NCBI GenBank assembly: GCA_001805055.1
Contig: MHDZ01000037.1
Location: forward strand, 1-37,572
Source of the DNA: Nitrospirae bacterium GWC2_57_13
GTDB lineage: Bacteria > Nitrospirota > UBA9217
Length of the DNA stretch: 37,572 nt
Direction: 5' to 3'
How positions within the stretch are numbered: position 1 is the stretch's first letter; each line of letters opens with the position of its first letter. A program made the position numbers and the translations under genes. This document shows positions 1 through 27,100 of this stretch, in pieces. The notes under the pieces were generated by a model, which searched no databases, was not told where the DNA came from, and saw nothing but the letters and a program-made list of their open reading frames with translations.

Positions 1-241
1 TCAGAAGTTTTCGCATGACAACGGATATTCCGTGACGACCGCTGCGAAATAACAAATGAACGTGGTTGTCTAACAACACCCATGCATAAATAGAACAATC
101 TGCCTCAAGGACGTTTTGCCCGAGCCGCTCAAGGAACTTGGCTTTATCCTGATCGTCTTTGAATATCTTCGACTTGTCAAGCCCGCGGACAATGATATGA
201 TGCAGTGCTCCGGGGACGTCTAATCTTGCTTGTCGTGGCAT
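1..241 (-). CDS. IS200-like / REP-associated tyrosine transposase, partial (N-terminal 80 residues)
   Basis: Reading from the ATG at 241 gives a protein that begins MPRQARLDVPGALHHII and continues to the window edge without a stop, so the C-terminal part is missing only because the window ends. It belongs to the Y1/HUH transposase superfamily (RAYT, TnpA-REP group), single-strand DNA transposases that cut with a tyrosine. The metal-binding HUH signature is visible as NHVHLLF near residue 60, and the N-terminal PRxxRxDxPGxxxHxI pattern is characteristic of the group; the catalytic tyrosine helix would be beyond the edge. The start is supported by the family N-terminus and by a consensus promoter just upstream. 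The upstream DNA holds a GGGGACGTT motif and a truncated cassette-like ORF, suggesting it landed in the cassette array. Confidence 0.85.
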   Translation of the reverse strand, partial: MPRQARLDVPGALHHIIVRGLDKSKIFKDDQDKAKFLERLGQNVLEADCSIYAWVLLDNHVHLLFRSGRHGISVVMRKLL

Positions 242-247
242 GAAGCG

Positions 248-276
248 ATTATAGGCATCAAACGGGTACTTGTCAA
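248..276 (-). promoter_or_regulatory. Consensus sigma70-type promoter of the transposase
   Basis: On the minus strand TTGACA (276-271) is followed by exactly 17 nt and TATAAT (253-248). Only six bases separate the -10 box from the ATG at 241, so transcription would start at or next to the start codon and no Shine-Dalgarno site fits between them. The mRNA would be leaderless. Confidence 0.6.
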
Positions 277-295
277 GCTAAATGCAACGTAAGCA

Positions 296-355
296 TCAAC
301 GTCCCCGATGCCTCTCCCCTGCAATAGACAAAAACAGCATTCTCGTCGCGTTCAT
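296..355 (-). CDS. Start of a truncated cassette-like ORF (19 codons)
   Basis: An ATG at 355 is preceded by a strong AGGAGG (368-363) with 8-nt spacing and encodes MNATRMLFLSIAGERHRGR before TGA at 298. It begins about 35 nt after the GTTACGC core of the candidate attC at 387-453, the distance seen for other cassette genes here. The ORF ends at the GGGGACGTTGA sequence that leads into the transposase unit. I read it as the 5' end of a cassette gene cut by the transposase insertion, but it could be a leader peptide or chance. Confidence 0.25.
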   Translation of the reverse strand: MNATRMLFLSIAGERHRGR

Positions 356-386
356 ACAGGCACCTCCTCTTAGATCCCTATGGGTC

Positions 387-453
387 GCGTAACAATCATC
401 AGGAATGAACAACGTCCATTTCCTGCGAGGAAATCAGTACGATGAAGTTAGCC
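387..453 (-). other. Candidate attC recombination site C (degenerate)
   Basis: Read on the minus strand, the 67-nt stretch begins GGCTAAC (453-447) and ends GTTACGC (393-387), each one mismatch from the attC core consensus RYYYAAC / GTTRRRY. The flanks of the cores pair as AAC-tt-CATC against GATG-att-GTT. It lies 63 nt downstream of the cupin stop codon. The internal arms are weaker than in the two sites further right, so this is the least certain of the three. Confidence 0.35.
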
Positions 454-515
454 TCCGAAATAAGTGAAGTGGCTTGATGTTATTACAGTCAGCTCGCAAA
501 ACCTGGTTATGCCGA

Positions 516-881
516 TCAACCTTCATCTCTATGGACGGCATCAGGAGAGAATGCCGGCATACACACTGCTATATATTCAGCTCCTTCATTTCCCGGCGTG
601 CTATATTGGACCCACTCGTTTGCCTTTACAATAATTGCCTCTCCCGCATGAACATCTAATTGCTCTTTTTCAGTTTTAACTCGCAACATTCCCCTTAAGA
701 CAACCGTATATTCAGCAAACTCAGGCTTCTGCCCCGGCTCTAACCAGCCTGCCGGACTGACCATGTGAGCTATACTCAGGTCGGATGTTTGTGAATTAAC
801 AAAGCCAATATATTCCTTGATCACCTTTGGCTTGTTGCCAGCAGCTTTAATTATCGTAGGCTTATCGATCTTAATTGGCAT
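516..881 (-). CDS. Small cupin-domain protein
   Basis: The 121-aa product has the alternating beta-strand and turn pattern of a single-domain cupin, resembling the EutQ-like group: residues 40-70 (MVSPAGWLEPGQKPEFAEYT then VVLRGMLRV) form motif 1, and residues 73-100 (LDVHAGEAIIVKANEWVQYS) form motif 2. The motif 1 histidines that usually bind metal are absent (an EFAEY stretch takes their place), so a catalytic metal site is doubtful and a substrate is not predictable. No signal peptide or membrane segment is seen, so it is probably cytosolic. The start is ATG at 881, about 20 nt after the core of the candidate attC at 897-984, as in integron cassettes. No good ribosome site is visible. The fold is fairly clear and the function is not. 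Confidence 0.75.
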   Translation of the reverse strand: MPIKIDKPTIIKAAGNKPKVIKEYIGFVNSQTSDLSIAHMVSPAGWLEPGQKPEFAEYTVVLRGMLRVKTEKEQLDVHAGEAIIVKANEWVQYSTPGNEGAEYIAVCMPAFSPDAVHRDEG

Positions 882-896
882 ATTAATATCTCAAGA

Positions 897-984
897 ACAT
901 AACGCCGCCTTTGAACCTCGACCGCTATGCGACATCGGGAAACGGAGCAATGTATCCGGTGTCGGCTCCAAAGGCTTGTTTGGC
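897..984 (-). other. Candidate attC recombination site A
   Basis: On the minus strand this 88-nt element starts GCCAAAC (984-978) and ends GTTATGT (903-897), each one mismatch from RYYYAAC / GTTRRRY. The arms pair imperfectly: AAC-AA-GCCTTTG-gagC-CGAC against RC AAC-GCC-GCCTTTG-aacct-CGAC, giving a paired core box, an unpaired spacer, a 7-bp paired box and a shifted stretch, which is the architecture of attC sites. It lies 42 nt downstream of the lipoprotein gene stop and about 20 nt upstream of the cupin start. Confidence 0.58.
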
Positions 985-1025
985 ACTATCCGGTGCAATA
1001 TCGACATCGTTTCAGCTGATTCGGT

Positions 1026-1553
1026 CTATGTGTCGTTACGACAAAAGTCGGGCTTTCTCTCGGGGTCAGGATAAAACTTTACCGGCACTTCTGACTTCTG
1101 GATGGCACCGTTCTTTTCAGACAATCTATACATTTTCAAATTGCAGGAGTCGGTGCCAAGAACATAGTCCGCTTGGTACTGTTCGTGCGGCTGAGGCCGA
1201 AATGAGAACACGAGTACGCATCTGTTGGTCTTTATTGTTGAACCGGACACTATGCCATGCGCGAACATTACCCGAAAAGGCAGCGTTCTATCGGCGGGGA
1301 TTAGTCTCTCCATGACCTCATTGTTCTTGTCGCTACGTGTCCCGTACATTTTCACAGGTGAGATTTCTTTCCACCACTCGTTTCTTATCATCCCACCCTT
1401 AATAAATCGGTCATTTTCACATGGCATTCCGACAGCCACGGGAACATTGGCGGTAAATCGAATCATTGCAGTCGGTACGTTTTCCGGAAAGGGGGGCGTT
1501 GCGCACCCGGTCGAAAGCAGTAAAAACGGGATAAAAAGAAATCTGTAAGTCAT
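1026..1553 (-). CDS. Lipoprotein of unknown function (cassette-borne)
   Basis: The 175-aa product begins MTYRFLFIPF and has a hydrophobic segment ending in the lipobox LSTGC with Cys17, so it should be exported by Sec, lipidated and anchored in an envelope membrane. The mature part is rich in Phe, Arg and Asn and contains five further cysteines. I recognise no domain. ATG at 1553 is preceded by GGAGG with about 8-nt spacing, which fixes the start. It lies between two attC-like palindromes (897-984 downstream, 1681-1742 upstream) and has the unknown-function character common for integron cassette products. A 26-codon ORF precedes it within the same inferred cassette. Confidence 0.7.
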   Translation of the reverse strand: MTYRFLFIPFLLLSTGCATPPFPENVPTAMIRFTANVPVAVGMPCENDRFIKGGMIRNEWWKEISPVKMYGTRSDKNNEVMERLIPADRTLPFRVMFAHGIVSGSTIKTNRCVLVFSFRPQPHEQYQADYVLGTDSCNLKMYRLSEKNGAIQKSEVPVKFYPDPERKPDFCRNDT

Positions 1554-1575
1554 AGCTATGTCCTCCCATTAGTTA

Positions 1576-1656
1576 TCATAGTTCAGCTTTTACTTGAACT
1601 ATCAGTGTCAAGCTCCGTGCTAATTGAGCGACAGCACTCCAATCGTTAAGATTCAT
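1576..1656 (-). CDS. Possible 26-aa peptide or truncated cassette ORF
   Basis: ATG at 1656 follows GAGGGGG with about 5-nt spacing and encodes MNLNDWSAVAQLARSLTLIV plus six more residues before TGA at 1578-1576. It starts 31 nt after the GTTATTC core of the attC-like site at 1681-1742, the position expected for the first gene of a cassette, and ends 22 nt before the lipoprotein start. An 8-bp hairpin (1578-1585 with 1595-1602) covers its last codons. It could be a leader peptide, a remnant of a longer gene, or chance. Confidence 0.3.
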   Translation of the reverse strand: MNLNDWSAVAQLARSLTLIVQVKAEL

Positions 1657-1680
1657 GAATACCCCCTCATGGTTTGTGAA

Positions 1681-1742
1681 GAATAACGACGCGGGTCACG
1701 CGCCGCCTCGTGGCGCGTCGCTGTGGACCCGCCTCGTTAGAA
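1681..1742 (-). other. Candidate attC recombination site B
   Basis: On the minus strand the 62-nt element starts TTCTAAC (1742-1736) and ends GTTATTC (1687-1681). The arms AACGA-g-GCGGGTC and its counterpart RC AACGA-c-GCGGGTC pair with a single unpaired central base, and an inner stem ACGCGCC/GGCGCGT closes a 7-nt loop. The outer core-box pairing with a mismatched spacer fits attC folding. It lies 37 nt after the stop of the HEPN-motif gene. The last four bases of the right core (ATTC) fit GTTRRRY poorly. Confidence 0.58.
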
Positions 1743-1779
1743 TTCGCAGTGGGTTTCATTTCGATCTACCGGCACGGGG

Positions 1780-2520
1780 CTATTCGTTTAATTCGAAAAT
1801 CCAATAAGTGCCAAATTTATAATATGCGTAAGGATCTAGCTTGTTATCCTTAAGATAAATTTCTAGATTATTCAGGCAAGTTGAAACTAGTCTCTGAAAA
1901 AACATGACTGGATATACAAGTTCAATGCTCTTCTCTTCTTTTCCAGCGTCAACTATTGTCATCCCGTGATAGTACGGGTAATCCTCGTCGTCCTTTGACT
2001 CAATCCCATAGCCAGGTTCTCTCAATTCATGTACCAGACTGTTTCGGTAGGCATAAAGCAGGTGAAAATGCTGTAATGACTCTAATGTTATTCCTTCGAT
2101 TGGGATTCTGCACTCCTTTAGAGTAGGCCAATTCTTCTTAATTTCATCGCTTGTTGGATCCGTATCAAGTCCGACAAGCTGTGATCTGTGGACGTTTGAT
2201 CTATCGTACGCTTCAAAAATTATCTTCCTAAGTTTTTCAAAAGCGGGATCTGGGTTTATTCTTAATAGTTGCGCCAAATGAGGCATGCTTATTCTGTAAC
2301 CTTCGCTCCAATTCGCAAATCTCATTAAGAAAGCTACAAAGCGCTCATGGTTTTTACCATTCCTGTGTGGGAATACACTCTTAGACAATGCATCAATAAC
2401 GCTAACATACAGAGCTTTTTTAAACTTTTTGCTTGAATCCGATGCCGGAATTGCATCAATCATCCTTAACTCATTTTCGAAATACTTTTTGAATCTGTTA
2501 ATGCGATCATCGATTGTCAA
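1780..2520 (-). CDS. HEPN-motif protein of unknown function, candidate RNA-targeting toxin or defence factor
   Basis: The 246-aa, mainly helical, soluble product carries YRNSLVHEL at residues 158-166. R159-N160-x3-H164 matches the RNxxxH signature of HEPN-superfamily ribonucleases, which act in toxin-antitoxin, abortive-infection and CRISPR effector proteins. The N-terminal 100 residues are charged helices with no domain I recognise. The start is TTG at 2520, with AGGAG eight nt upstream. The gene is clearly AT-richer than rel next door, pointing to horizontal acquisition. It is followed by the attC-like site at 1681-1742, and a perfect GTTRRRY core (GTTAGAC, 2546-2540) lies 20 nt upstream of the start, so it looks like a complete integron cassette. 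The motif is short, so a non-catalytic helical protein is an alternative. Confidence 0.72.
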   Translation of the reverse strand: MTIDDRINRFKKYFENELRMIDAIPASDSSKKFKKALYVSVIDALSKSVFPHRNGKNHERFVAFLMRFANWSEGYRISMPHLAQLLRINPDPAFEKLRKIIFEAYDRSNVHRSQLVGLDTDPTSDEIKKNWPTLKECRIPIEGITLESLQHFHLLYAYRNSLVHELREPGYGIESKDDEDYPYYHGMTIVDAGKEEKSIELVYPVMFFQRLVSTCLNNLEIYLKDNKLDPYAYYKFGTYWIFELNE

Positions 2521-2539
2521 TTTTTCAACTCCTATCTGG

Positions 2540-2546
2540 GTCTAAC
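2540..2546 (-). other. Candidate cassette boundary (GTTAGAC core site)
   Basis: On the minus strand GTTAGAC matches the integron core consensus GTTRRRY exactly and stands just before the ribosome site of the HEPN-motif gene. A left partner with good pairing is not obvious to the right of it, so it could be the recombined edge of an attI-like site or a decayed attC. Confidence 0.4.
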
Positions 2547-2570
2547 AAGTTATTATAGAAACGACTCATG

Positions 2571-2698
2571 GTATCCAATATTATATACTGGCATATAATA
2601 TTGGATACCTGCATCTAGTATTATATGCTTTTCTGGCATCTAATATTAGATGCTTTTTCCTGTTTCACATGAGTGCCAGAGCATCTAATATTATATGC
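2571..2698. repeat. Five 18-bp AATATT-centred palindromic repeats
   Basis: Related 18-mers lie at 2571-2588 (GTATCCAATATTATATAC), 2591-2608 (an inverted copy), 2611-2628 (GCATCTAGTATTATATGC), 2636-2653 (GCATCTAATATTAGATGC, a perfect palindrome) and 2681-2698 (GCATCTAATATTATATGC). Start-to-start distances are 20, 20, 25 and 45 nt. The cluster sits between the rel stop and the HEPN-motif gene start, so it occupies the upstream region of the latter. Tandem palindromes at near-helical spacing suit protein binding; a decayed dispersed repeat is the alternative. Confidence 0.85.
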
Positions 2699-2773
2699 TT
2701 CTCCAGATTCGTTCCTTTGATCCTGCCGAACGGAATGAATCAGGGCCTCACATTTTGCCGACAATGGATGACA

Positions 2774-2829
2774 TCCTGTACCCTGTACCCTGTACCCTGT
2801 ACCCTGTACCCTGTACCCTGTACCCTGCA
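2774..2829. repeat. Tandem heptamer array, eight CCCTGTA units
   Basis: Six perfect CCCTGTA units (2781-2822) are flanked by a TCCTGTA and a CCCTGCA variant. The array ends two bases before the rel stop codon. Both strands are open through it only because 7-mers cycle through all frames; I see no gene here. Confidence 0.97.
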
Positions 2830-2831
2830 AA

Positions 2832-4979
2832 TCACCCCGCCTTCACCCTGCTGACGCTCGCAACACCGTTCAGCTTCTCGATGCTCTTGATAATGCGGTT
2901 CAAGTGCTCCACGTCGCGTATATCAAGGGTGAAGTTGAGCTGGCCGCGCCGGTCTTCGCTGACCGTGGCCTCGGCATGGGTGATGTTCGCCTCGGCAGCG
3001 CTGATTGCCGACGAGACGCTGCCGAGCATGCCCGGCTTGTCCTCGACGAGCACGGCGATCTTGACGGCATGGGACGTTGACCGGAGGTCTCCCCAGGTCA
3101 CGTCCACGAGGCGCTCCTGGTCCACGGACAGTTCGGCCACGTTCGTGCAGTCCGCCGTGTGCACGGACACGCCCCGACCCCGCGTAATGAACCCCACGAC
3201 GCGGTCGCCGGGAACGGGATTGCAGCACTTGGACAGGTGGATCAGCATTTGGTCCATGCCGCTGATGTTCATACCGGCGCCGTGGGAAGGCAGGGGTTTC
3301 TTGACGGTCTTTTTGGTTACGTGCTCCAGCGGCGTTTTCTCGGGCGCGAGCTTGTTCGCCACCTGATGGGCCGAGACCTTGCCGTAGCCGATGGCGGCAA
3401 GGAGGTCGTCAAGGGTGTTATGGGACATCTCCTGGGCGACAGCGATAAGACCTTCGGACTTCATGGTCTTCGCGGGCGACAGCTCATGCTTGCGCAGGTC
3501 CTTTTCCAGCAGTTCACGGCCCAGCAAAATGCTCCTGCGGCGCTCCTCGGCCTTGAGCCATGCCTTGATCCTGGTGCGCGCCTTGGAGGTCTTGACGAAT
3601 TTGAGCCAGTCCCTGCTCGGCACGTGTCCGGTCTGGCTGATGACCTCGATGCGGTCACCGTTCTGGAGCTGATATTTCAGCTGCACGATCTTGCTGTTCA
3701 CCTTCGCGCCTACGCACTGGTGGCCGATGTCGGTGTGCACGCTGTAGGCGAAGTCAACGGGCGTGGACCCCAGGGGCAATTCCTTCACGTCGCCATGGGG
3801 GGTGAAAACATAGACCACATCGGGAAAGAGGTCCCCCTTCACGCTCTCCATGAACTCCCGGGCGTCGGACAGATCGCGCTGCCATTCGAGTATCTGCCGG
3901 AGCCACGAAAACTGCTGCATGTCGCGCTGGCTGACCGTGGACCGCTCCTTGTACTGCCAGTGCGCGGCGATGCCCTCCTCGGCGATTCGATGCATGTCCT
4001 CGGTGCGCAGCTGGAACTCGACGCGTTCGCCCTTGGGGCCGATGACCGTGGTGTGGAGGGATTGGTACATATTCGACTTGGGCACGCCGATGAAATCCTT
4101 GAACCGGCCCGGCACAGGCGTCCAGAGCGAATGAATGAGGCCGAGGATGGCGTAGCAGTTAACCTTGGTGTCGGTCATGATCCGGATGGCGATAAGATCG
4201 TACACGTCCTCGAAGGAGATGCCCTGTTTCTGCATCTTCTGATATATGCTGAAAAAATGCTTGGGCCTGCCCGTCACCTCGCCCTTGAACCCGTGCTCGG
4301 CAAGGTGGCGCTGCACGATCTCGATCAGCTCATTGATGTAGGAGTCTCTCTCGGCCCGGCGCTTCGACACCTTCCGGGATATCTCCTCGTAGGCCTCGGG
4401 ATGCAGGTACATCAGGGCAAGGTCTTCCAGCTCCGTCTTGATCCTGGCGATGCCGAGGCGGTTGGCAAGGGGCGAGTAGATATCGAGCGTTTCCTGGGCG
4501 ATGTGCTTCTGTTTTTCCAGGGGAAGGTGCTTGAGGGTCCGCATGTTATGAAGCCGGTCGGCGAGTTTGATGAGGATCACGCGGATGTCGTTGGCCATGG
4601 CCACGATCATCTTGCGGAAGTTCTCGGCTTCGCGCTCTTCGCGACCCTTGAGCTCGATTCGGCTGATCTTGGTCATGCCTTCGACGAGCATGGCGACCTC
4701 AGGCCCGAAGATCTCCTTGATCTGCTCGGCCGTCGTTGGCGTGTCTTCCAGCGTGTCGTGCAGCAGCCCAGCAGCCACGGTGGCGGAATCGAGCTTCAGC
4801 TCTGCGAGGATATTCGCCACTTCCAGGGGATGGTCCAGATAGGGTTCGCCGGACATGCGCGTCTGCCCCTGGTGGACCTTGGCGGAAAAAATGTAGGCGC
4901 GCCTCACCAGGTCCACATCCGCTTCGGGGTGGTCCTTCTGAATTCTCTCGACAATGTCTTCCAGACGTGTTATCGGCAT
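2832..4979 (-). CDS. rel: Bifunctional (p)ppGpp synthetase/hydrolase, Rel/SpoT family
   Basis: The 715-aa protein has full Rel length and domain order. The N-terminal HD hydrolase domain shows H50, H74-D75 (LLHDTLED) and the KLADRLHN helix with D141. The synthetase domain at about 235-350 contains RFKD at 292-295 followed by KSNMYQSLHT. The RxKD form of this motif marks bifunctional Rel/SpoT enzymes, whereas RelA-only synthetases carry ExDD. A TGS domain follows (about 395-460), and the last 75 residues form an ACT domain (AVLVEDKPGMLGSVSSAI). It makes and degrades (p)ppGpp from GTP/GDP and ATP in response to starvation, in the cytosol and at ribosomes. It is transcribed away from recJ with a 71-nt gap behind it. 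The heptamer array begins just past its stop. Confidence 0.97.
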   Translation of the reverse strand: MPITRLEDIVERIQKDHPEADVDLVRRAYIFSAKVHQGQTRMSGEPYLDHPLEVANILAELKLDSATVAAGLLHDTLEDTPTTAEQIKEIFGPEVAMLVEGMTKISRIELKGREEREAENFRKMIVAMANDIRVILIKLADRLHNMRTLKHLPLEKQKHIAQETLDIYSPLANRLGIARIKTELEDLALMYLHPEAYEEISRKVSKRRAERDSYINELIEIVQRHLAEHGFKGEVTGRPKHFFSIYQKMQKQGISFEDVYDLIAIRIMTDTKVNCYAILGLIHSLWTPVPGRFKDFIGVPKSNMYQSLHTTVIGPKGERVEFQLRTEDMHRIAEEGIAAHWQYKERSTVSQRDMQQFSWLRQILEWQRDLSDAREFMESVKGDLFPDVVYVFTPHGDVKELPLGSTPVDFAYSVHTDIGHQCVGAKVNSKIVQLKYQLQNGDRIEVISQTGHVPSRDWLKFVKTSKARTRIKAWLKAEERRRSILLGRELLEKDLRKHELSPAKTMKSEGLIAVAQEMSHNTLDDLLAAIGYGKVSAHQVANKLAPEKTPLEHVTKKTVKKPLPSHGAGMNISGMDQMLIHLSKCCNPVPGDRVVGFITRGRGVSVHTADCTNVAELSVDQERLVDVTWGDLRSTSHAVKIAVLVEDKPGMLGSVSSAISAAEANITHAEATVSEDRRGQLNFTLDIRDVEHLNRIIKSIEKLNGVASVSRVKAG

Positions 4980-5033
4980 GTTCCGAATATCCTGGGCGCA
5001 CTGCCCGATGCGTCATTCATTACTTATGCAATG

Positions 5034-5050
5034 CCACGCCTTCAGCGTGG
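5034..5050. repeat. Short hairpin CCACGC-cttca-GCGTGG between recJ and rel
   Basis: Six perfect base pairs enclose the loop CTTCA, ending at the recJ stop codon. There is no U-tract, so it is at best a weak terminator. Similar TTCA-loop hairpins occur at 9258-9275 and 17616-17634. Confidence 0.45.
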
Positions 5051-6817
5051 TCAGGCCTTGTCCGCCTTGAGGTCCCTGACCTCCAGTTCCACGGCGGTCC
5101 TGTTGTTCCAGGTGTTGACGCGAGGCGTGAAGACCGCTGCCACGCGGTTGCCGTTTCGCGCGATCTTGCCGTGAAGCCCGGCCCGGCTGAAAGCGATGGC
5201 ATCGATGGGCTGGCCCTCACCCTGCCGGACGCGAAGCTTCAGATGCTTAGCGCCGACGATCCTCGACGAGATCACTTCGAGCCCACGCGCGCCGAGCCGC
5301 GGTTCTGGATTGCCCTGGCCGAACGGCGCGAGCCGCTCGATCTCCTCGACGAGTTCCCTGCCCAGTTCTGCGAGGGAAACAGATCCGTCGATCCGGAGCG
5401 TACGGACAAAACCGTCGGCACCCGCGCGCTCCCGCGCCACGGCGTCAAGCCTGGCGCTCAGTTCTTCGATACGCCCCTGGTCCACGGTGAATCCGGCTGC
5501 GTACCGGTGGCCGCCGTACCCGAGTAGCAGATCAGCGCACTGCACTAAAGCTCTGTACAGGTCGAAACCCGGCACGCTGCGGGCCGAGCCCTTCCCGATC
5601 CCATCCTGGAGGGAAATAAGCGCTGTTGGCCGGTAGAACTCCTCGGCTATGCGCGAGGCCACAATGCCGATCACTCCCGGGTGCCATTTCTCCGATGCAA
5701 GCACGAGAGCGCCCGTGGACGGGATGTCCTTGTGCAGGCACATGCGCCGGGCATCCTCCCAAATGACATCTTCAATGGACCGGCGTTCGCGGTTCATCGC
5801 ATCAAGCATTTCAGCCAGCTCGGCAGCCTCGCTGCTCGATTCGGTGGACAAAAGCCGAAATGCGGCCGAGGCGTTCTCAAGCCTGCCGCTCGCATTGATC
5901 CGCGGGGCCAGGGAGAAGCCCACAGTGCCTACGCCCACCTTTTTCCCTGTCAGTCCGGCAACGGCCTTCAGCGCTGCCACACCGGGCCGCTGCGCCGAAG
6001 CAGACGAAAGGGCCTCAAGCCCATGCTTCACCAGGACGCGGTTCTCTCCCGTAAGGCTGCCCATGTCCGCCACGGTGCCGAGCGTCACGAGATCGAGATA
6101 GTGCAGCACTCCGGCATCGCCTGCTCCCGTGTCCAGAAGAGCCTGGGCAAGCTTGAAGGCCACACCGACTCCTGTCAGGCCGGCCACGCTGGACGCCACA
6201 GGCTCCGGAACATCGGGTGCCAGCAGCAGAGGATGGATCACTGCATAGGCTGCGGGCGCGGAACGGCCCACCTGTCCTGCCTCGCGCTCTTCTCCACTGT
6301 CGTTACGACCGCCAGGCAGTTCATGATGATCGGTGATGATCAGATCGATGCCCAGGGAACGGGCCTGCTCAGCCTCGTGCAGAGCGCTGATGCCGCAATC
6401 AACGGTGATGACAAGACCGGTACCCGATCCCTTGAACATCTCCAGGGCGCCCGCATTCAGGCCGTAGCCTTCGCTCATCCTGTCGGGGATGTACCAATCA
6501 ACGACTGCTCCCAGGCCGCGCAGGACCAGCGTCAGGAGCGTCGAAGCGGTTATGCCGTCAACGTCATAATCACCATAGACGACGATCTTTTCCTTGCGAG
6601 CCAGGGCGTCTCTGATACGCCGGACAGCCCGCTCCATGTCTCGGAAAATGCGGGGATCGGAGAGGGTGGAGAGGTCGCAGGTGAGGAACGAAAGCGCTGC
6701 TGCAGGGTCGGTGATTCCCCGGTTGACCATCAGCCGCGCGACCAGCGGGTGGAGGCCGGCGGCTTGAGCGAGCTCCGAAGACGCCTCCTCATTGGATTCT
6801 GTGAGGATCCATTTCAT
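5051..6817 (-). CDS. recJ: Single-stranded-DNA-specific 5'-3' exonuclease RecJ
   Basis: The 588-aa product has RecJ length and its DHH-family motifs: YGDYDVDGIT at 81-90 (motif I), TDHHELP near 165 (the DHH triad of motif III), and the C-terminal DHHA1 nucleic-acid-binding region with GYGGHRYAAGFTV (GGHxxAAGF). The last domain, about 450-588, is the OB-fold that completes RecJ. It degrades ssDNA from the 5' end in recombination and mismatch repair, using Mn/Mg. ATG at 6817 is preferred to the ATG two codons earlier because GAGGG then stands 7 nt upstream. A short gap separates it from tatA on the same strand, so it may be co-transcribed with mobA and tatA. Confidence 0.96.
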   Translation of the reverse strand: MKWILTESNEEASSELAQAAGLHPLVARLMVNRGITDPAAALSFLTCDLSTLSDPRIFRDMERAVRRIRDALARKEKIVVYGDYDVDGITASTLLTLVLRGLGAVVDWYIPDRMSEGYGLNAGALEMFKGSGTGLVITVDCGISALHEAEQARSLGIDLIITDHHELPGGRNDSGEEREAGQVGRSAPAAYAVIHPLLLAPDVPEPVASSVAGLTGVGVAFKLAQALLDTGAGDAGVLHYLDLVTLGTVADMGSLTGENRVLVKHGLEALSSASAQRPGVAALKAVAGLTGKKVGVGTVGFSLAPRINASGRLENASAAFRLLSTESSSEAAELAEMLDAMNRERRSIEDVIWEDARRMCLHKDIPSTGALVLASEKWHPGVIGIVASRIAEEFYRPTALISLQDGIGKGSARSVPGFDLYRALVQCADLLLGYGGHRYAAGFTVDQGRIEELSARLDAVARERAGADGFVRTLRIDGSVSLAELGRELVEEIERLAPFGQGNPEPRLGARGLEVISSRIVGAKHLKLRVRQGEGQPIDAIAFSRAGLHGKIARNGNRVAAVFTPRVNTWNNRTAVELEVRDLKADKA

Positions 6818-18337: not shown

Positions 18338-19453
18338 TCACAATATCCGCTCAAAGATCCGGTATTTCTTATACAGTTTCCCGCCCATGAGCTCGCAGCC
18401 CTTCTGCATCAGCACATTGTCCTCAAGGACCCAGGACATCTCGGCGCGTTCGTATCCTCTCTTCATCGCCGCCTTAAATGACGCGAGATAGAGCATGGCC
18501 TCGATCCCTTTTCTGCGATATTCTTCCTTCACGCCCAGGGTGAGAACGCGGATATCCTTTATCTTGCGGGAATGCCACAGGAACTTGAGAATTTCCACGG
18601 GCCCCAGTTTTCCGTTCAGCTTGCTCAATACATGATTGAAGTCCGGCACGGCCATGAAGAAGGCCACGGGGTCGCCGTTGACCTCGGCCATGATCAGCAG
18701 ATCGGCCACGAGCAGGGATTTGAGCCGGTCCGCCAGGGAATCGATTTCCTCTTCCGTCATGGGCACGAACCCCCAGTTGTGGACCCAGGCGGAATTATAG
18801 ATATCCTTGACCGCCGACAGTTCCTTCTGGAACTTTCTCATGTTCGCTGGCCGCACAACAAGACCCGGGATCCTTTTCCGCAGGGAGGCGGCCAGTTTTT
18901 CGAGCCGGTCAGCTGACGGCACATCCTTGATGACCGAGATATAGGCATACAGATCCTTGACCTTGGCCAGGCCGCAGTGTTCCATGTAATCGAGATAGTA
19001 GGGAGGAGTATAGGGCATCATGATCATGGGAGGACTGTCGAATCCTTCGAAGAGAAAACCGCATTCATCGTTCACCGAGGGGTTCATGGGGCCCCGCATC
19101 ACCTCAATGGCGCGTTCCTTCAACCAGCCCGAGGCAGCGTTCAGCAGCCCTTCCGCCGCAGCAATTTGCACGGGAAGGCATTCGAAAAACCCGAAAAAAC
19201 CAACCTGCTCATTGTGGATATTGATATGATTGCGGTCGATGATAGCAGCGATTCTTCCGACCACGGCGCCGTTCTCTCGGGCAAGAAAATAGGCTGACTC
19301 GGCGTGCTTGAAGAAGGGATTCTTGTCGCCGAGCATGAACTCCATCTCCTTCAGGAGCGGCGGCACCCAGTGCGGATTCCCCTCGTAGACCTTCCAGGGG
19401 AAGCGGATGAACTGGCCCATGTCTTGCTTGTCTGAAACAAGATCGATCTGCAC
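18338..19453 (-). CDS. YghO-like GNAT acyltransferase, candidate bacterial ceramide synthase (bCerS)
   Basis: The 371-aa product (from GTG 19453, GAGG 5 nt upstream; an in-frame start at 19549 would add an unconserved N-terminus) is a GNAT-fold protein of the YghO group. Characteristic segments are FIRFPWKVYEGNPHWVPPL, NPFFKHAESAYFLARENGAVVGRIAAI and GFFGFFECLPVQIAAAEGLL, then RGPMNPSVNDECGFLFEGFD and YTPPYYLDYMEHCG. The bacterial ceramide synthase of Caulobacter is a GNAT acyltransferase of this kind, which N-acylates long-chain bases. The next two genes encode SPT-like and CerR-like enzymes in the same direction, so N-acylation of 3-ketosphinganine or sphinganine is a reasoned role; an acetyltransferase of unrelated substrate is the alternative. 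An ACP or acyl-CoA ligase is not encoded nearby. Confidence 0.82.
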   Translation of the reverse strand: MQIDLVSDKQDMGQFIRFPWKVYEGNPHWVPPLLKEMEFMLGDKNPFFKHAESAYFLARENGAVVGRIAAIIDRNHINIHNEQVGFFGFFECLPVQIAAAEGLLNAASGWLKERAIEVMRGPMNPSVNDECGFLFEGFDSPPMIMMPYTPPYYLDYMEHCGLAKVKDLYAYISVIKDVPSADRLEKLAASLRKRIPGLVVRPANMRKFQKELSAVKDIYNSAWVHNWGFVPMTEEEIDSLADRLKSLLVADLLIMAEVNGDPVAFFMAVPDFNHVLSKLNGKLGPVEILKFLWHSRKIKDIRVLTLGVKEEYRRKGIEAMLYLASFKAAMKRGYERAEMSWVLEDNVLMQKGCELMGGKLYKKYRIFERIL

Positions 19454-19543
19454 GAACACCTCGCATCGATGATAGAGCTCCTGCCGAGGACAAGCTGGAA
19501 ACAAAGCAGTTACTAAGACATGCGGTAGTAATGCCACATAGTT

Positions 19544-19616
19544 CGTCATTCCCGCGAAAGCGGGAATCCAGAAACAATGTCAAAACTCTGGATTCCGGGT
19601 CAAGCCAGGAATGACG
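19544..19616. repeat. Dispersed inverted repeat (GTCATTCC... type)
   Basis: Arm 1 (19544-19571) starts CGTCATTCCCGCG, contains a small hairpin TTCCCGC-gaaa-GCGGGAA and ends in ATCCAG. Arm 2 (19588-19616) starts CTGGATTCC and ends GGAATGACG. The two are inverted copies with some drift in the middle. This type of repeat is widespread in environmental bacterial genomes, between genes. Confidence 0.85.
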
Positions 19617-19730
19617 GATTATTTTCTATGAGGCTCTACTAATGACCATCTTAGTAAACCACTGGCGGCTCTGCCGCACACGGATAAAACCATATACGAA
19701 ACGAACATTCAAACCTGTGTTCATCCGTGA

Positions 19731-19747
19731 GTCCCGTTCTGCGGGAC
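19731..19747. repeat. GTCCCG-ttctg-CGGGAC hairpin downstream of the SPT gene
   Basis: A 6-bp perfect stem lies 49 nt past the SPT-like stop codon. It may act as a weak terminator. No gene is seen from 19550 to 19795 apart from this and the dispersed repeat above. Confidence 0.45.
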
Positions 19748-19795
19748 CCGTGGTTTCATAAATTATATTATAGAATTTAAGATTCAGCGCCTGCC

Positions 19796-20974
19796 TTAGA
19801 TAACTCCCAGCTTCTTCCCCGCCTTTTCCAGGATCACCAGCACCCGGTCGAGCATCTCATCGGAGTGCGTGGCCATGTAGCTGGTACGGATGAGACAGCG
19901 TCCGGCCTGCGTGCCCGGCGGGACCACGGGATTCACGAACACACCTTCCTCGCTCAGGATCTTCCACATCATGAAGGCCCGGTCCTGCTCGCCCATGAGC
20001 AGCGGAATGATCGGCGTCTCGGAGTTCCCGGTGTCGTATCCCATCTCCTTGAAAGCCTTCATCATCTTATGCGTGTTCTTCCAGAGGCGTGCAAGCCGGT
20101 CGGGTTCACTGTCAATGACCTCGAGCGCCGCAATGACCGACGCCACCGATGCCGGCGGCGGACTTGCCGAGAAGATAAGCGGCCGCGATGTATGCTTCAT
20201 GTAATGGATAATGTCCTCATCGGCCACGACGAACCCGCCGATGGATGCCAGGGACTTGCTGTAGGTCCCCATGATCACATCCACTTCCTTTTCGAGGCCG
20301 AAATGCTCAGCAGTACCGCGCCCTGTTTTACCCAACACCCCGACGCCGTGAGCATCGTCCACCATCAGCCGGGCGCCGTACTTCTTGCAGAGCGTCACGA
20401 TGTCCGGCAGCGGCGCAATGTCCCCTTCCATGCTGTATACGCCGTCAACGACGACGAGCTTGCCCCTGTTGCCGTTCTCTTTCAGAACGTACTCCAGGCT
20501 CGTCATGTCGTTGTGCTTGAACTTCTTGAGCTCGGCATAAGAGAGCCTGCAGGCGTCGAAAATGCTGGCATGGTCCAGCTTGTCGACGAAGATAACATCG
20601 TCCTTGCCTGCCAGGGAGGAGATGATGCCGAGATTCGTCTGGTAACCGGTGGAAAAGGTGAGCGCCCCTTCCTTGCGGAAAAAAGCTGCGAGCTTTTCCT
20701 CGAGCTTCACATGGATGTCCAGGGTGCCGTTCAGGAACCGTGAACCCGCGCATCCGCTGCCGTATTTCTTGACCGCCGCGACGGCTGCATCCTTGACCTT
20801 CGGATGGCTTGTGAGACCGAGATAATTATTCGACCCGAGCATGATCATCTTCTTTCCTTCGACGATCACCTCCGGATTCTGCTCCGACTCCACAACGCGG
20901 AAATAGGGATAGAATCCCGCTGCCATAATTTCCTTTACAGCGGTGTACTTCCTGCACTTCTCAAAAAGATCCAA
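19796..20974 (-). CDS. spt: Serine palmitoyltransferase-like alpha-oxoamine synthase
   Basis: The 392-aa protein is a fold-type I PLP enzyme of the alpha-oxoamine synthase family. Visible landmarks are NNYLGL at 49-54, the His stacking on PLP in DHASIFDACR (H135), VDDAHGVGVLG at 195-205, and the Schiff-base lysine in GTYSKSLASIGG (K240). Its FSTGYQTNLGIISSLAG and MMWKILSEEGVFVNPVVPP stretches match bacterial SPT (Sphingomonas, Caulobacter) more closely than 8-amino-7-oxononanoate synthase or KBL. SPT condenses serine with a long acyl thioester to 3-ketosphinganine. The next gene downstream encodes a GNAT candidate ceramide synthase and the one upstream a CerR-like reductase, all on the minus strand. 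ATG 20974 is kept; no better start is seen. Confidence 0.85.
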   Translation of the reverse strand: MDLFEKCRKYTAVKEIMAAGFYPYFRVVESEQNPEVIVEGKKMIMLGSNNYLGLTSHPKVKDAAVAAVKKYGSGCAGSRFLNGTLDIHVKLEEKLAAFFRKEGALTFSTGYQTNLGIISSLAGKDDVIFVDKLDHASIFDACRLSYAELKKFKHNDMTSLEYVLKENGNRGKLVVVDGVYSMEGDIAPLPDIVTLCKKYGARLMVDDAHGVGVLGKTGRGTAEHFGLEKEVDVIMGTYSKSLASIGGFVVADEDIIHYMKHTSRPLIFSASPPPASVASVIAALEVIDSEPDRLARLWKNTHKMMKAFKEMGYDTGNSETPIIPLLMGEQDRAFMMWKILSEEGVFVNPVVPPGTQAGRCLIRTSYMATHSDEMLDRVLVILEKAGKKLGVI

Positions 20975-21059
20975 CGCTTCTACCTCCGACTCGAAAGATG
21001 TATTTCACTGATTCACCTTCATACCTTCCCATCTTCCCAACTTCACATCTTCTGCACTA

Positions 21060-22067
21060 TCATATCCAGCCCTGCTCGCGGTACCATTTCCAGGTACGCG
21101 CAAACCCCTGTTCCAGGGGTATAGCTGACTGGAATCCCAATTCTCGTCCGATCTTTCCAACATCGCCGATCCAGTGCTTCTGACGCGCCTCACGCACTTT
21201 CTGCCGGTTCGTAAGCGCGGGCCTTCCGGTAAGCAGCCCGCCTGCCTCGGACAGAAGACCCATGAGATAAGCCGCGAAATATGGGATCGTCACTGTTCGT
21301 GCTTTTACCCCGCCTGTCCGGAGCAGCACGTCCCGGAACGCTGACCACGAATAGGGCCTGTCCTCGGAAACGAAGTAGATGCTGCCCGAAAGGACGTCCT
21401 TTTCCACGGCGAGGACCAGCGCATCGGCCAGGTCTTCCACATAACAGGGCGCGAGATAGCGCTCGCCGCCGCTAATCTTCACGAACAATCCCTTTGCAGC
21501 CCAGCGGAATAGTTCGAACATGTCCCTGTCCCGGGGGCCGTATACCGCCGAAGGCCGCAGGATGACCAGGGGAAACCGGGCGCGATAGCGGATCGCTTCC
21601 TGCTCGGCGAAAAGCTTGCTCTTTCCGTAGTCCGATACGGGCCTCGGCGTGTCGGTGTCCTTCACCGGCTCGCCATCAAGACTCGGTCCGGCAGCAGCAA
21701 GGCTCGAGACGAGTACAAATTTTTTTACGACGTTGCCGGCGTTCGCGCAGGCGTCGAGAAGGTTTCGCGTGCCGAGATGATTAACTTCATAGTATTCACG
21801 CGCCCAACGCGCCTTGGTCAATCCCGCGGCGTGGATCACCGCCGACACGCCGTCCAGGGCCGGAGGGATCGTACCGGGAAGCGTGCAGTCTCCCTCTATG
21901 ATCCTCACGTTCGATCCTGTGAGCCATCGCAGCCGGGCCGGGTCCCTGACAAGACAGGTGACGTCCCATCCCCTCATGAGGAGCCGCTCCACGGTATGGC
22001 TGCCGACCAGACCAGTGGCTCCGGTCACCAGGACCCGAGGGGAAGTTGCTGTCATGCCCGCCCGCAC
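21060..22067 (-). CDS. NAD(P)-dependent extended SDR, candidate 3-ketosphinganine or ceramide reductase (CerR-like)
   Basis: The 335-aa product is an extended short-chain dehydrogenase: Rossmann motif TGATGLVGSH (15-24), NHLGTRNLLDACA, active-site SSLAAAG and Y147-x3-K151 (DYGKSK), and a C-terminal substrate domain ending in WYREQGWI. The reductase that lowers the ketone of 3-ketosphinganine or 3-ketoceramide in Caulobacter (CerR) is an NAD-dependent epimerase-like protein of this class. It sits 85 nt upstream of the SPT-like gene on the same strand, separated only by a small repeat-rich gap, so co-transcription is likely. The first codon is GTG at 22067; ATG at 22055 is an alternative and neither has a convincing ribosome site. 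Other hydroxysteroid- or UDP-sugar-type activities are less likely in this context. Confidence 0.82.
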   Translation of the reverse strand: MRAGMTATSPRVLVTGATGLVGSHTVERLLMRGWDVTCLVRDPARLRWLTGSNVRIIEGDCTLPGTIPPALDGVSAVIHAAGLTKARWAREYYEVNHLGTRNLLDACANAGNVVKKFVLVSSLAAAGPSLDGEPVKDTDTPRPVSDYGKSKLFAEQEAIRYRARFPLVILRPSAVYGPRDRDMFELFRWAAKGLFVKISGGERYLAPCYVEDLADALVLAVEKDVLSGSIYFVSEDRPYSWSAFRDVLLRTGGVKARTVTIPYFAAYLMGLLSEAGGLLTGRPALTNRQKVREARQKHWIGDVGKIGRELGFQSAIPLEQGFARTWKWYREQGWI

Positions 22068-22147
22068 CTGAAGCCAAAATTATTGGGTAGTGTATCCAAA
22101 GTACTCGCCTTCTGTCAAGGAATATACTTCTCGTTCGTGGTGCTTTT

Positions 22148-23104
22148 TCAACGGTGGTTCTCGACGTCTGAGGGCAGCGGGCAGGAGGGACTCATGTCGC
22201 ACCGCTCGCATTCGAGCTGGATGGTGCTGTGCAGAACCTTGAACTTGTCTAAAAGAATGGACCGGATCTTGTCCAGGATGTCCCTGCTTCCGCTCACCAA
22301 CTGATCGTCGATCACTACATGGGCGCTCAAAGCATAGACCCCTGACGTGATGGTCCAGAGATGCACGTGATAGGCTTCGCGCACGCCTTCGATCTTCTCG
22401 ATCTCTGCGCTAACCGAAGCGATATTGATATGGGCAGGAGCGGATTCAAGGAGAATATGGACCGATTCCATCACGAGCGCTCCTGCGCTGATAATGATGG
22501 CAACGGCTATGAGGATGCTCAGAAGCGGATCAATGAGATACCATCCCGTGTAGATGATGACAATGCCGCCGATGATGACCCCCACCGAGGACAGGGCATC
22601 ACCGACGATGTGCAGGAAGGCGCCCCGGATGTTCAGGTTCGTCTTGCGGTGCTTCAGCAGGAAGAACCCGCCGACAAGGTTCACAAGGAGGCCCAAAACT
22701 GCGACGGCGAACATGAGCCCCCCTTCAACTGACTGAGGCGCAAGGATGCGCTGGTAGGCATGATAGATGATGAAGAGCGATACGATGAGCAGGACGGTCC
22801 CGTTCACAAGGGCGGCAAGGATCTCGAGGCGGTAAAAGCCGAAGGTCTTTTTTTCCGTGGCCGGCATGACCGCAAAGGTCATGGCGAAGAAGGAGAGGGC
22901 AAGAGCAAGGCTGTCGGTAAGCATGTGCCCGGCGTCGGACAGAAGAGCGAGACTGTTCGAAAGCAGTCCGCCGACCACCTCGGCCACCATCATGACCACG
23001 GTGATCGAGAGGGCGATCAGCAGGCCGCGCTTGCCGCCTTCCGCGTTTTCCCGGTAAACGTGGCCATGGCCGTGATGATCATCATGGGTGTGGGAATGGG
23101 ACAT
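22148..23104 (-). CDS. Cation diffusion facilitator (CzcD/ZitB-type) metal exporter
   Basis: The 318-aa product has six membrane helices, a His-rich N-terminus (MSHSHTHDDHHGHGH) and a C-terminal metal-binding domain. The intramembrane site is visible as SLALLSDAGHMLTDSLAL (D57, H60, D64) and LHIVGDALSSVGVI on helix 5. The His-rich head and H/D set point to zinc/cobalt/cadmium. CDF proteins export divalent metal in exchange for protons across the inner membrane. ATG at 23104 is preferred because it starts the conserved MSHSH head; the AGGAGG upstream has rather long spacing (14 nt). The last residues include CERCDMSPSCPLP, which could add a metal site. It follows mqnA in the same direction, with an 87-nt gap. 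Confidence 0.92.
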   Translation of the reverse strand: MSHSHTHDDHHGHGHVYRENAEGGKRGLLIALSITVVMMVAEVVGGLLSNSLALLSDAGHMLTDSLALALSFFAMTFAVMPATEKKTFGFYRLEILAALVNGTVLLIVSLFIIYHAYQRILAPQSVEGGLMFAVAVLGLLVNLVGGFFLLKHRKTNLNIRGAFLHIVGDALSSVGVIIGGIVIIYTGWYLIDPLLSILIAVAIIISAGALVMESVHILLESAPAHINIASVSAEIEKIEGVREAYHVHLWTITSGVYALSAHVVIDDQLVSGSRDILDKIRSILLDKFKVLHSTIQLECERCDMSPSCPLPSDVENHR

Positions 23105-23191
23105 AATATCGTACCAGTTCCTCCTCGGGGATGTACCGCTCAGGCCATCAAGCGTAGGGGCGGGCATGCCCGCCCATTGGGCTGGTCCATA

Positions 23192-24010
23192 TCACGGAGC
23201 TTGCCAGAACCTCAGATCAGGAACGGACTCGATCATGCCGAGCTCCGCGGCATAAGCATAATAGGTCAGCAGTCCCTTCTGTTCCTTTTCCGAGAGATCG
23301 AAACTGAAGGATCGCCAGTAGTCCAGCAGGCGTTCGGCCGGGATGCCGAAGCGTGCAGAATAGTCCCTGGCCAGCCCCTCCAGATGCGACAGCCCGTATT
23401 CCTTGGAACGCTGGAGAACATCATAAAGCAGGACGAGGTCTTTATCAATGGTTTTTTTGTAGTTCACCTGCCAGAGAGCGAAGACAAAGGGAAGGCCGGT
23501 AAATTCATGCCATAACGCGCCGAGGTCGTACAGATGGGGGAATCGAGGCGACGGCTCCAGCTTCAACGCGTGGTCGCCGATTGTGAGCGCTGCATGGACC
23601 CGCGCAGGCGGCTCCTCCTTCCCCTGCTCGAAGTCAATGTAATCGGGTGAGAGACCCGAACGAAGTTCAAGCAATATCCGCAGCAGGACCACTGACGTGG
23701 CTGAAGCCGTGGTAAGGGCCACGGTGCCGCGGTCGAGTTCGTTCAAGGGCACACTGCTCTGAAGAATGATGCTTTTTGCCGCGCTTCGCGATGTAATGGA
23801 AAACCCCGGCAGGATCCGGTATCTGCCGGGATTATAAGCGTATTCGATGGAAGATGACGGCGAGATATCAATCCCTCCGTCCAGCAGCAGACGGTTCAAG
23901 GCTGTGGGTATGCCGTCAACAAGAGTAAACGGGAACGGCACAACGCCGGTGATGATCCCCGCGTGCATGGGAAGACAGTTGGAATAGATGATATGCCCGA
24001 GTTTGATCAT
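23192..24010 (-). CDS. mqnA: Chorismate dehydratase MqnA (futalosine menaquinone pathway)
   Basis: The 272-aa product has MqnA hallmarks: start MIKLGHIIYSNCLPMHAGI, GIDISPSSSIEYAYNPGRY (the conserved DISPVSSIEYA-like segment), SIILQSSVPL, the GDxAL box in TIGDHALK, and YDLGALWHEFTGLPFVFALW. MqnA removes water from chorismate to give 3-enolpyruvylbenzoate, the first step of the futalosine route to menaquinone. It implies this organism respires with menaquinone; MqnB-MqnE are not in the window. The start is ATG at 24010. It lies 153 nt downstream of the RND pump gene, in the same direction, with a stretch of dispersed ATCCGCG-type repeat in the gap. Confidence 0.9.
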   Translation of the reverse strand: MIKLGHIIYSNCLPMHAGIITGVVPFPFTLVDGIPTALNRLLLDGGIDISPSSSIEYAYNPGRYRILPGFSITSRSAAKSIILQSSVPLNELDRGTVALTTASATSVVLLRILLELRSGLSPDYIDFEQGKEEPPARVHAALTIGDHALKLEPSPRFPHLYDLGALWHEFTGLPFVFALWQVNYKKTIDKDLVLLYDVLQRSKEYGLSHLEGLARDYSARFGIPAERLLDYWRSFSFDLSEKEQKGLLTYYAYAAELGMIESVPDLRFWQAP

Positions 24011-24162
24011 GGCTGATTGTTATATTGGCCGCAGATTTACGCAGATGAACGCGGATAACATCGTAAAACATTTCCCATGCATGGATGCAATCCGTCAAAA
24101 CAAGATAAAACCTCTGATAATATGAGCTTTATCCGTGCCTATCCGCCTTTATCCGCGTCCAA

Positions 24163-27100
24163 TCATACCTCTTTCTTTCTCTTAAAGAAATTCTCCAGAT
24201 CGTCCACCAGCGTATACACCACCGGCACGACAACGAGCGTCAGCAGCGTTGAAGTGACCAATCCTCCGATAACGGCAATGGCCATGGGAGCCCGCAGTTC
24301 CGCGCCCTCGCCGAGCTTCAGCGCCGTGGGCAGCATACCGAAGACCATGGCTGCCGTGGTCATCAGGATGGGCCGCAGCCGCACAGGCCCGGCCTTCAGG
24401 AGCGCCTCGTTCCGCTCCATGCCCTTGTGCCGGAGCGTGATGGTGTAGTCCACGAGCAGGATGGCGTTCTTTGTCACGAGTCCCATAAGCATAATAATGC
24501 CGATGAGGCTGAAAATATTGATCCGTTCGCCGGTAATATACAGTAGCCCCATAGCGCCAATGAAGCTCACCGGAAGCGAGAACATTATGGTGAATGGGTG
24601 AACAAAACTCTCGAACTGGGACGCCAGGATCATATAGACCATGATCACCGCGATGATCAGGGCAAAGACGATGCTCTCGAAGGATTCGAGCATTGCATCA
24701 GCCATGCCGATGTAGCGTGTGGAATACTCCTCGGTCAGGTTCTTTGCGGCGATGGCGTTCAAGTCGTTCATGGCTTCAGCCATCGGCTTACCCGCTTCGG
24801 TGTTCGCAAAAAGGGTGGCTGACCGCTGGCGGTTCATGTGGGTGATCACTGTCGGGCCCGTGCCGATGTCTAGCGTGGTCACATCCTCGAGCCCCACCAA
24901 TTCGCCGGTGGAGGAACGGACCCGCAGGCCTTCGATCTGGCCCGGCTTCCGGCGAGATTCAGGAATGAGCCGGGCGGTTATGTCGTACCGCTGTCCCTCC
25001 CTCTCATCCTTGTACTTGCCGATGATCTCACCGCCGATCATGGTGTTTACCGTATTACCGATGGACGCTGCGCTCACTCCAAGATTGGCTGCTTTGTCGC
25101 GGTCGATCCGCACCCGCACCTCGGGTTTACCGGTCTCGATGTCCGTATCCGCGTCCACAATGCCGGGAATGACCGCAAAGGCGTCCTTTATGACCAGAGT
25201 CCGTTTGTGGAGGTCTTCAAGGTCCCGGCCCTGAACGACGAGCTGGATGGGAACGGCCCGCATGCCGCCGCCGACCATGGCGATCGGCTCGACCGATGTC
25301 TTGAGATCCTTTGTGCCGGTGATATCATCGCGGATCACCTTCATGGACCCGAGCTGGTCGATGGTCCGATCCTTCCTTTCCTTCAGGTTCACATAGATCC
25401 TGCTCTTGTTAATGGCCGGCGCGAAGTCCGTCCCGGTAACATAGAACGTGCCAGACACCTCGGGCCGCTGCCGGAGCTTCTCATCGACGCTCATCATGAG
25501 CGAGTCAGCACGCTGCAGCGAATAGTCGATAGGCGCCTCCAGCCTCACCAGATACCGACCCTGGTCTTCGGCAGGCATGAATTCCTTTCCCAGCAACACA
25601 AAGATCGCAAGGCCAGCCACAACACTCCCCAGGGCGATAGTTATGACTGTCGGTCGATGACGAAGGGCCCAGGCCAAGAGCGGCCGGTAGAACTCATAGA
25701 GCTTCTCGTACCCTTTTTCGAGGAACATATAGATTTTTCCATGCTTCTGCCGGTAGTACAGAAAGCGCGATGAGAGCATGGGAGTGAGCGTAAGCGAGAC
25801 AAAGAGCGAGACGAGCACCGCAACGGTCACGGTGATGCCGAACTCGTAGAAAAATTTACCTACGATTCCTTTCATAAAGGCCACGGGTACGAAGACGGCT
25901 ACGATAGAGAAGGTCGTCGCCATGACGGCAAGACCGATCTCGGAGGCGCCTTCCCGGGCTGCCTGGACCGGCGGCTCCCCTTCTTCCATCCGGCGATAGA
26001 TGTTCTCGAGCACCACGATGGCGTCATCGATCAGGATGCCGATTGACAGGGATAGCGCCAGCATGGTCATCATGTTCAGCGTGAACCCGAGAAACTGGAT
26101 GAAGGCAAAGGTGGCGATAACCGAGGTCGGCAGGGCCACGGCACTGATCAGGGTGCTCCGGACGCTCCTGAGGAACACGAAGATGATCACCACGGCCAGG
26201 ATCGCACCGAGCCAGAGGGCTATCTGCACGTCCTCAATGGAGCGCTTGATGTAGATCGACTGGTCGAAGGTAATGTTCAGCTTTATGCCCTTCGGCGGCT
26301 TGACCGCTGCCACCGCTGCCTTGACGCGATCCGCCACGGCCACGGTATTTTCCCCGGACTGCCGCTTCACTGACAGGCCCACAGCTGTCTTGCCGTCGTA
26401 TCGTGTGATAGACCGCTCGTCCTCGAGGCCGTCCTCAGCGTAGCCGATGTCCTTCAGTTTAATGAGCCGTCCGTGGCGATAGGAAATTACCATGCCGTTG
26501 AACGCCTCGGGCGTCTCATACTCGCCCTTGGTCTTGACAATATATTCCATGCGGCTGTTCTCGATCCTGCCGCCTGGAACTTCCTTGTGCTCGGCGCCCA
26601 ATGCCCGCTTCACGTCTTCCGACGTGAGCGCGGCAGCCTCCATCTTCTTTTGGTCAAGCCAGATACGCACCTGCCGCTCCCGGCCGCCGCTTATCGTGAC
26701 CGACCCCACGCCAGGGATCTTCTCGATGTCCCGCTTCAGCACCTTGTCGGCATAGTGCGTCATATCCTTTATGGTCCGGTCGCCCCAGGCCGCTATCCAG
26801 ATGATGGGCTGGTCCTCGGGGCTGATCTTCTCGATCACCGGCGGCTCGGTTTCCTTAGGCAGCTGGTTTCGTACGGCGCCGACCTTGTCGCGCACGTCCT
26901 GGGCAACCAGGTCGATATTCCGCTCAAGATGGAACTCCACGGTCACGATGGAAAATTCCTCCATGCTGGAGGAACGGATGGACTTGACGCCGCTGATCGT
27001 ATTGACCGCTTCCTCGATCACATCGGTGACGTCGATCTCCATCACTTCAGGGCTTGCGCCAACGAGCTTGGTGGTGATGTTGATCACCGGAAAGTCAACT

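Follow-up and report, generated by a model that had tools for sequence, protein, structure and literature searches.

Organization of the locus

The window analysed here, a stretch of 37,572 nucleotides, is contig C37 of the 3.32 Mb draft genome (105 contigs) of Nitrospirae bacterium GWC2_57_13. Along its minus strand rel is followed by a gap, a HEPN-like ORF, palindrome 1, a lipoprotein-like ORF, palindrome 2, a cupin ORF, palindrome 3 and a Y1 transposase. The features referred to throughout, including those located in the gap, are the following:

2832 to 4979, minus strand: rel (RelA/SpoT; Pfam HD_4/RelA_SpoT/TGS/ACT), left neighbour of the array
2680 to 2739, minus strand: gene X remnant, 20 C-terminal codons (FIPFGRIKGTNLEKHIILDA), in frame, located by tblastn
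2681 to 2698, 2636 to 2653, 2611 to 2628, 2591 to 2608 and 2571 to 2588: five 18-bp palindromic iterons, consensus about GCATCTAATATTAGATGC
2540 to 2554, minus strand: attI core AATAACTTGTTAGAC, insertion point G^TTAGAC, with the first cassette directly after it
1780 to 2520, minus strand: cassette 1 ORF, 246 aa, HEPN-like R-x4-H motif
1681 to 1742, minus strand: palindrome 1, attC 1, 62 nt
1026 to 1553, minus strand: cassette 2 ORF, 175 aa, lipoprotein-like, taken from the ORF list
897 to 984, minus strand: palindrome 2, probable attC 2 with a long loop, 88 nt
516 to 881, minus strand: cassette 3 ORF, 121 aa, cupin (Pfam Cupin_2)
387 to 453, minus strand: palindrome 3, unsupported as an attC
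2 to 241, minus strand: N-terminus of a RAYT-like Y1 transposase (Pfam Y1_Tnp), which ends the array and continues into contig C92

In the eight relatives with enough downstream sequence, ridA always follows rel within about 0.05-0.5 kb. Here ridA is found at C92:2682, 5.4 kb from rel across the C37/C92 junction, with the array in between. The ends of the two contigs coincide exactly over 83 bp, and joining them there restores the 326-aa frame of a RAYT-like transposase; the join rests on this overlap inside the transposase gene, which could be a repeat. A toxin-antitoxin-like pair (ParD/RelE type by eye) occupies C92:1629-2157, between the array and ridA. Window positions 327-437 and C92:2201-2317 are diverged copies of one sequence, the 5' region of an ORF for a small membrane protein; the copy in the window is truncated and adjoins the Y1 transposase, and the duplication may record the insertion of the latter.

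Among the labels given to the three ORFs in the preliminary description, which read them as an integron-like cassette array, that of the cupin is borne out by Pfam, whereas that of the HEPN protein has the R-x4-H motif (RNSLVH) behind it but no Pfam, NCBIfam or convincing PADLOC support. The lipoprotein-like ORF gave no family match in profile searches. A comparison between strains had been proposed earlier as a check on single cassettes; at the level of the family, the cassette 1 gene is missing from all 13 other genomes, distant homologues occur in 6 of 396 genomes of the phylum and a related-locus search with its protein returned no relatives. Cupin homologues are present in 37 other genomes among the 396 searched; 19 of the homologue loci were examined for attC, and none has one within 1.5 kb. 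No cassette-gene homologue elsewhere was found adjoining attC sites.

attC sites in the array

The palindromes, whose coordinates and sequences are as first described, begin 37, 41 and 62 nt past the stop codons, within the 37-63 nt reported. The accompanying claim of a start 20-35 nt beyond each core is correct for genes 1 and 3; the lipoprotein gene departs from it, with its ATG about 128 nt past the core. Using a strand-specific anchored-stem score and 2000 dinucleotide shuffles of each intergenic stretch, we obtained chance frequencies of 0/2000 for site 1, 7/2000 for site 2 and 184/2000 for site 3, the last being not significant.

Arrays beside the integron integrase gene (intI) in relatives were scanned for paired AAC...GTT hairpins, and a covariance model (R1) was built from 11 aligned sites, nine from relatives and two from contig C1 of the same genome, with the window excluded. 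In this alignment the 12 pairs are formed in 97% of cells as compared with 71% in shuffles (0/500), and both-side changes occur at 8 of the 12. A broader model (R2) was built from 62 sites, 52 of them distinct, in an alignment fitted to the structure, where covariation was again matched by 0/500 shuffles. Within the window R1 is significant only at palindrome 1, with 55.2 bits (E 1.3e-8 genome-wide) against 9.9 bits on the opposite strand, and R2 assigns this palindrome 62 bits. It displays pairing R''/R' cores, pairing L boxes with an unpaired base, and strand asymmetry, and we identify it as a true attC, although its outer core bases (TTCTAAC and GTTATTC) deviate from RYYYAAC...GTTRRRY. The paired feet, covarying L stem, one-strand scores and intI-adjacent positions in relatives of the copies of this hairpin led us to reject a REP element or terminator as candidate assignments.

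Sites 2 and 3 are missed by R1 alone. R2 places site 2 on exactly the boundaries first described, with a non-significant 4.7 bits, and this site is probably an attC with a long loop. R2 does not rescue site 3, whose region aligns with C92:2201-2317, the 5' region of the small ORF, both before and beyond the supposed core; considering its shuffle frequency, the absence of a model match and this homology through the core, site 3 is not supported as an attC. An Rfam scan of window positions 1-6000 gave no match. The cassette-array reading, checked in this way with our own models, thus stands at the first palindrome and probably at the second, but the third attC lacks support.

An attI core and a platform remnant at the head of the array

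The perfect GTTAGAC noted earlier before the first gene is real (2540-2546, minus strand) but forms part of an attI-type core rather than an attC. Zero-mismatch matches to AATAACTTGTTRRNY (AATAACTTGTT-RRNY) are found only twice in the 3.3 Mb genome, at window 2540-2554 and at C54:10-24, the latter being the attI beside the one intact intI of the genome, and a one-mismatch match heads part of an array on contig C27. The same core is present at intI-linked heads in four loci of relatives (G005:C12, G010:C128, G004:C53 and G007:C55). Given its identity to intI-adjacent insertion points, its GTTRRRY end and a first cassette directly downstream, window 2540-2554 is assigned as an attI core. It shares its layout and GTTRRRY right end with the attI cores of class 2 (AATAAAATGTTRRRY) and class 1 (AAACAAAGTTRRRY) integrons (PMC12901181), and to the left of RRRY it matches the class 2 core at 9 of 11 positions; unlike both, it is flanked by palindromic iterons linked to gene X. 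According to the IntegronFinder authors, attI sites outside class 1 are poorly described (PMC9024848). At C54:1-28, G004:C53, G004:C111 and G007:C55 the same short hairpin, GAACTAAGCCGCTgCGCGGCaGTGT, stands directly after the attI core; it resembles a minimal attC, and contig ends fall at the same place.

Upstream of the core a platform block extends over 2571-2739. The gene X remnant is 80% identical to residues 95-114 of an intI-adjacent gene X in a Geobacter MAG, with a tblastn E of 4e-9 against a 400-bp subject, and it is overlapped by the first iteron (2681-2698). The iteron stretch contains five palindromes as compared with 1.5 in shuffles, and iterons of the same type are present in G010:C128 and in Geobacter platforms. 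Aligned with the G010:C128 platform, the head block DNA scores 110 (shuffles: mean 19, maximum 32, n=300). The second array of the genome, on C27, has a similar head with iterons and AATAACTTGTTAGGG, which aligns with that of the window with a score of 89 (shuffled maximum 65). A tblastn search for an intI remnant in window 2501-2900 gave only spurious matches to a 7-bp tandem repeat. This repeat, (TACCCTG)n, occupies 2777-2828, after the rel stop and before the platform remnant, and possibly marks a deletion or insertion junction. With iterons and core kept and intI missing, the platform of the window is, judged from its sequence, a remnant and not an intact member of the gene X/iteron type.

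Integrase and other arrays in the genome and the family

A TIGR02249 profile search of the genome contigs bore out the earlier statement that the window has no integrase gene. The single clear integron integrase is encoded at C54:205-1635 (476 aa, 373 bits); the contig starts just beyond the attI of this intI. The closest named relatives of the integrase are mostly from Nitrospirota MAGs, which makes the host an uncultured Nitrospirota bacterium. Matches resembling intI are confined to C54, C18 and C80, with none on C37 or C92. More attC sites, a search for which had been proposed, were also found elsewhere in the genome, as several dispersed clusters with matches on C1, C27, C32, C33 (two places), C48, C76, C86 and C91, most of them in same-strand groups and most behind a same-strand ORF. 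Across the family, intI exceeds the cut-off in 7 of 14 genomes, and attC matches are present in all 14, at up to 34 per genome and in small groups on many contigs, even where no intI was detected. Scattered small arrays are therefore normal in this Nitrospirota family, with the draft assembly inflating the apparent scatter.

Two more attI-like regions without a working intI, on C94 and C4, share a conserved promoter-like pair TTGACC-N17-TATGCT; the former includes a stop-containing remnant of the intI N-terminus and the latter leads into a TIR-like gene. At its N-terminus, the IntI of C54 and of about 20 other loci has roughly 100 additional aa, which look like a faint second copy of the core-binding domain (hhalign probability 42%, E 3e-4).

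The gene X-iteron platform in relatives

A complete platform is found in G010:C128, with intI at 1620-3053 (minus strand), gene X at 3430-3801 (plus strand), the iterons, the core at 3884 and cassettes with attC at 4418 and 5450. The intact order of intI, gene X, palindromic iterons, attI and cassettes is displayed in Nitrospirota, Geobacter and other Desulfuromonadales. Gene X lies divergently beside intI in 21 of the 66 related intI loci whose upstream sequence reaches 600 nt or more, among them loci of Geobacter argillaceus, Geotalea, Geomonas and Desulfuromonadaceae. Of the 14 genomes of the Nitrospirota family, 10 carry gene X, entire or as a fragment; no copy was found on plasmids. Downstream of gene X, palindromes exceed the shuffle mean in every tested locus and are followed in most by an attI-type core. 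Several relatives retain gene X only as 3' fragments, in three cases followed by attC sites (G010:C108, G010:C41 and G012:C33), so that decay of the type seen in the window recurs. In G012:C50 an array at about 19242-25594 has an intact gene X and several attCs downstream, in a genome with no intI passing E 1e-70. The open-licence literature gave no instance of DUF5710 together with integrons, nor of a gene plus iterons between intI and attI, and the gene X-iteron platform provisionally appears to be undescribed.

The C-terminal half of the gene X protein matches DUF5710 (PF18974) in all 20 members scanned, whereas Pfam, NCBIfam and PHROG gave nothing convincing for the N-terminal half (LKPGQKGTK...YGD.L.CVRYRYDE). 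The predicted structure (mean pLDDT 77, pTM 0.41) gave a best E of 0.69 with Foldseek against the PDB, and thus no fold-based function, and a sequence search of the PDB returned no match.

The iteron half-site varies with the gene X clade (CATCTAAT, CATCTACA, CATCCTAT, TTACCTAT, TTTATAAT and others). We compared the two with a Mantel test over 22 loci, using gene X residues 1-95 and leaving out the stretch that overlaps the first iteron. Gene X distance follows iteron distance (r 0.59, p 0.0001), equally so after removal of the intI distance in a partial Mantel test, while intI and iteron distances show no correlation when gene X is partialled out (r 0.16, p 0.07). This covariation fits binding of the iterons by the gene X protein, which is probable, and could also come from joint inheritance of neighbouring sequence. 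In intact platforms the protein would bind the iterons and control either the cassette promoter and its transcription or recombination at attI.

Origin of the array

The locus holds an attI core, iterons, a gene X remnant and attC 1, while intI is absent here and found elsewhere in the genome. We consider the window very probably to be a decayed chromosomal integron, from which intI and most of gene X are gone and in which the iterons, attI and two or three cassettes remain; it goes beyond a mere cluster of attC sites because an attI-type core, iterons and a platform-gene remnant head the array. The ancestral integron, ordered intI, divergent gene X, palindromic iterons, attI core and cassettes, would have lain between rel and ridA, and loss of intI and of gene X down to about its last 20 codons would have left the present remainder. 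The attI-cassette block could instead have been transferred here without intI.

Considering that cassettes away from platforms are common in this family, with its attC matches on many contigs of all 14 genomes, the array might be a plain CALIN, its cassettes having been put into a secondary, attG-like chromosomal site by an integrase acting in trans where an integron was never present. The relatives that lack cassette 1 are in agreement with this, as is the use of attG sites by IntI for genome insertion, cited in PMC12901181. At a secondary site, however, neither a core with the attI sequence nor an upstream flank with a gene X remnant and iterons matching those of intI platforms is expected, and we regard this origin as improbable. 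An ordinary three-gene operon with terminator hairpins, or REP-type repeats spread by the RAYT-like transposase at 2-241, would account for the Y1 transposase adjoining the array and for about five related copies of hairpin 1 in other parts of the genome, whose GC-rich centre is conserved. In those copies, nevertheless, the AAC...GTT feet still pair and the L stem, which has one unpaired base, covaries; they adjoin intI in relatives, score on a single strand only and lie mostly downstream of a same-strand gene, often 40-60 nt away; no sequence is common to them and site 2, and none of the 13 family relatives has cassette 1. This explanation is the least credible, and we give it hardly any weight.

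As a decayed integron, the array would have been frozen by the loss of intI unless the C54 integrase serves it in trans. IntI acts on the folded bottom strand of attC and inserts at G^TT of attI, and cassettes of the window could by prediction still move through the C54 IntI acting on attC 1 and the window attI.

Comparison with known integron systems

The preliminary description had left the choice between an attC cluster lacking an integrase (CALIN) and the end of a chromosomal integron. CALINs have been proposed to be degraded integrons (IntegronFinder, PMC9024848), and the window shares with them attC-bearing cassettes without an adjoining integrase. Their definition asks for at least two attC and no integrase nearby; with one attC certain and a second probable, the window stands at the bottom of that range. 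It is more than a CALIN in keeping the attI core and part of the platform, a direct sign of decay. A complete integron, with intI adjoining the array, is not present in the window. In sedentary chromosomal integrons, where attI adjoins intI, cassettes likewise point away from attI, the attCs are short hairpins and the core is GTTRRRY; they differ in the intI that the window lacks, and its intact platform relatives have gene X and iterons between intI and attI.

The LexA/SOS control of intI known from beta- and gamma-proteobacteria (PMC3108266) likewise places a DNA-binding regulator at the integron platform, if gene X has the role suggested here; in contrast to that system, the protein is not LexA, its gene forms part of the platform, and its presumed sites lie at attI. 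An evenly balanced proposal is that Nitrospirota and Desulfuromonadales share a previously undescribed platform in which the small conserved protein of gene X, encoded between intI and attI, binds several palindromic iterons at attI and governs either the expression of cassettes or the access of integrase; gene X and its iterons would then be a module that evolves largely independently of IntI.

As a single locus the window is of modest interest, displaying integron decay with attI still in place where CALINs were only proposed to be degraded integrons (PMC9024848). Its value lies in the platform type that it revealed, which has its own candidate DNA-binding protein and repeated operator-like sites at attI, outside the LexA-controlled beta and gamma groups, and which offers a testable handle on the regulation of environmental integrons.
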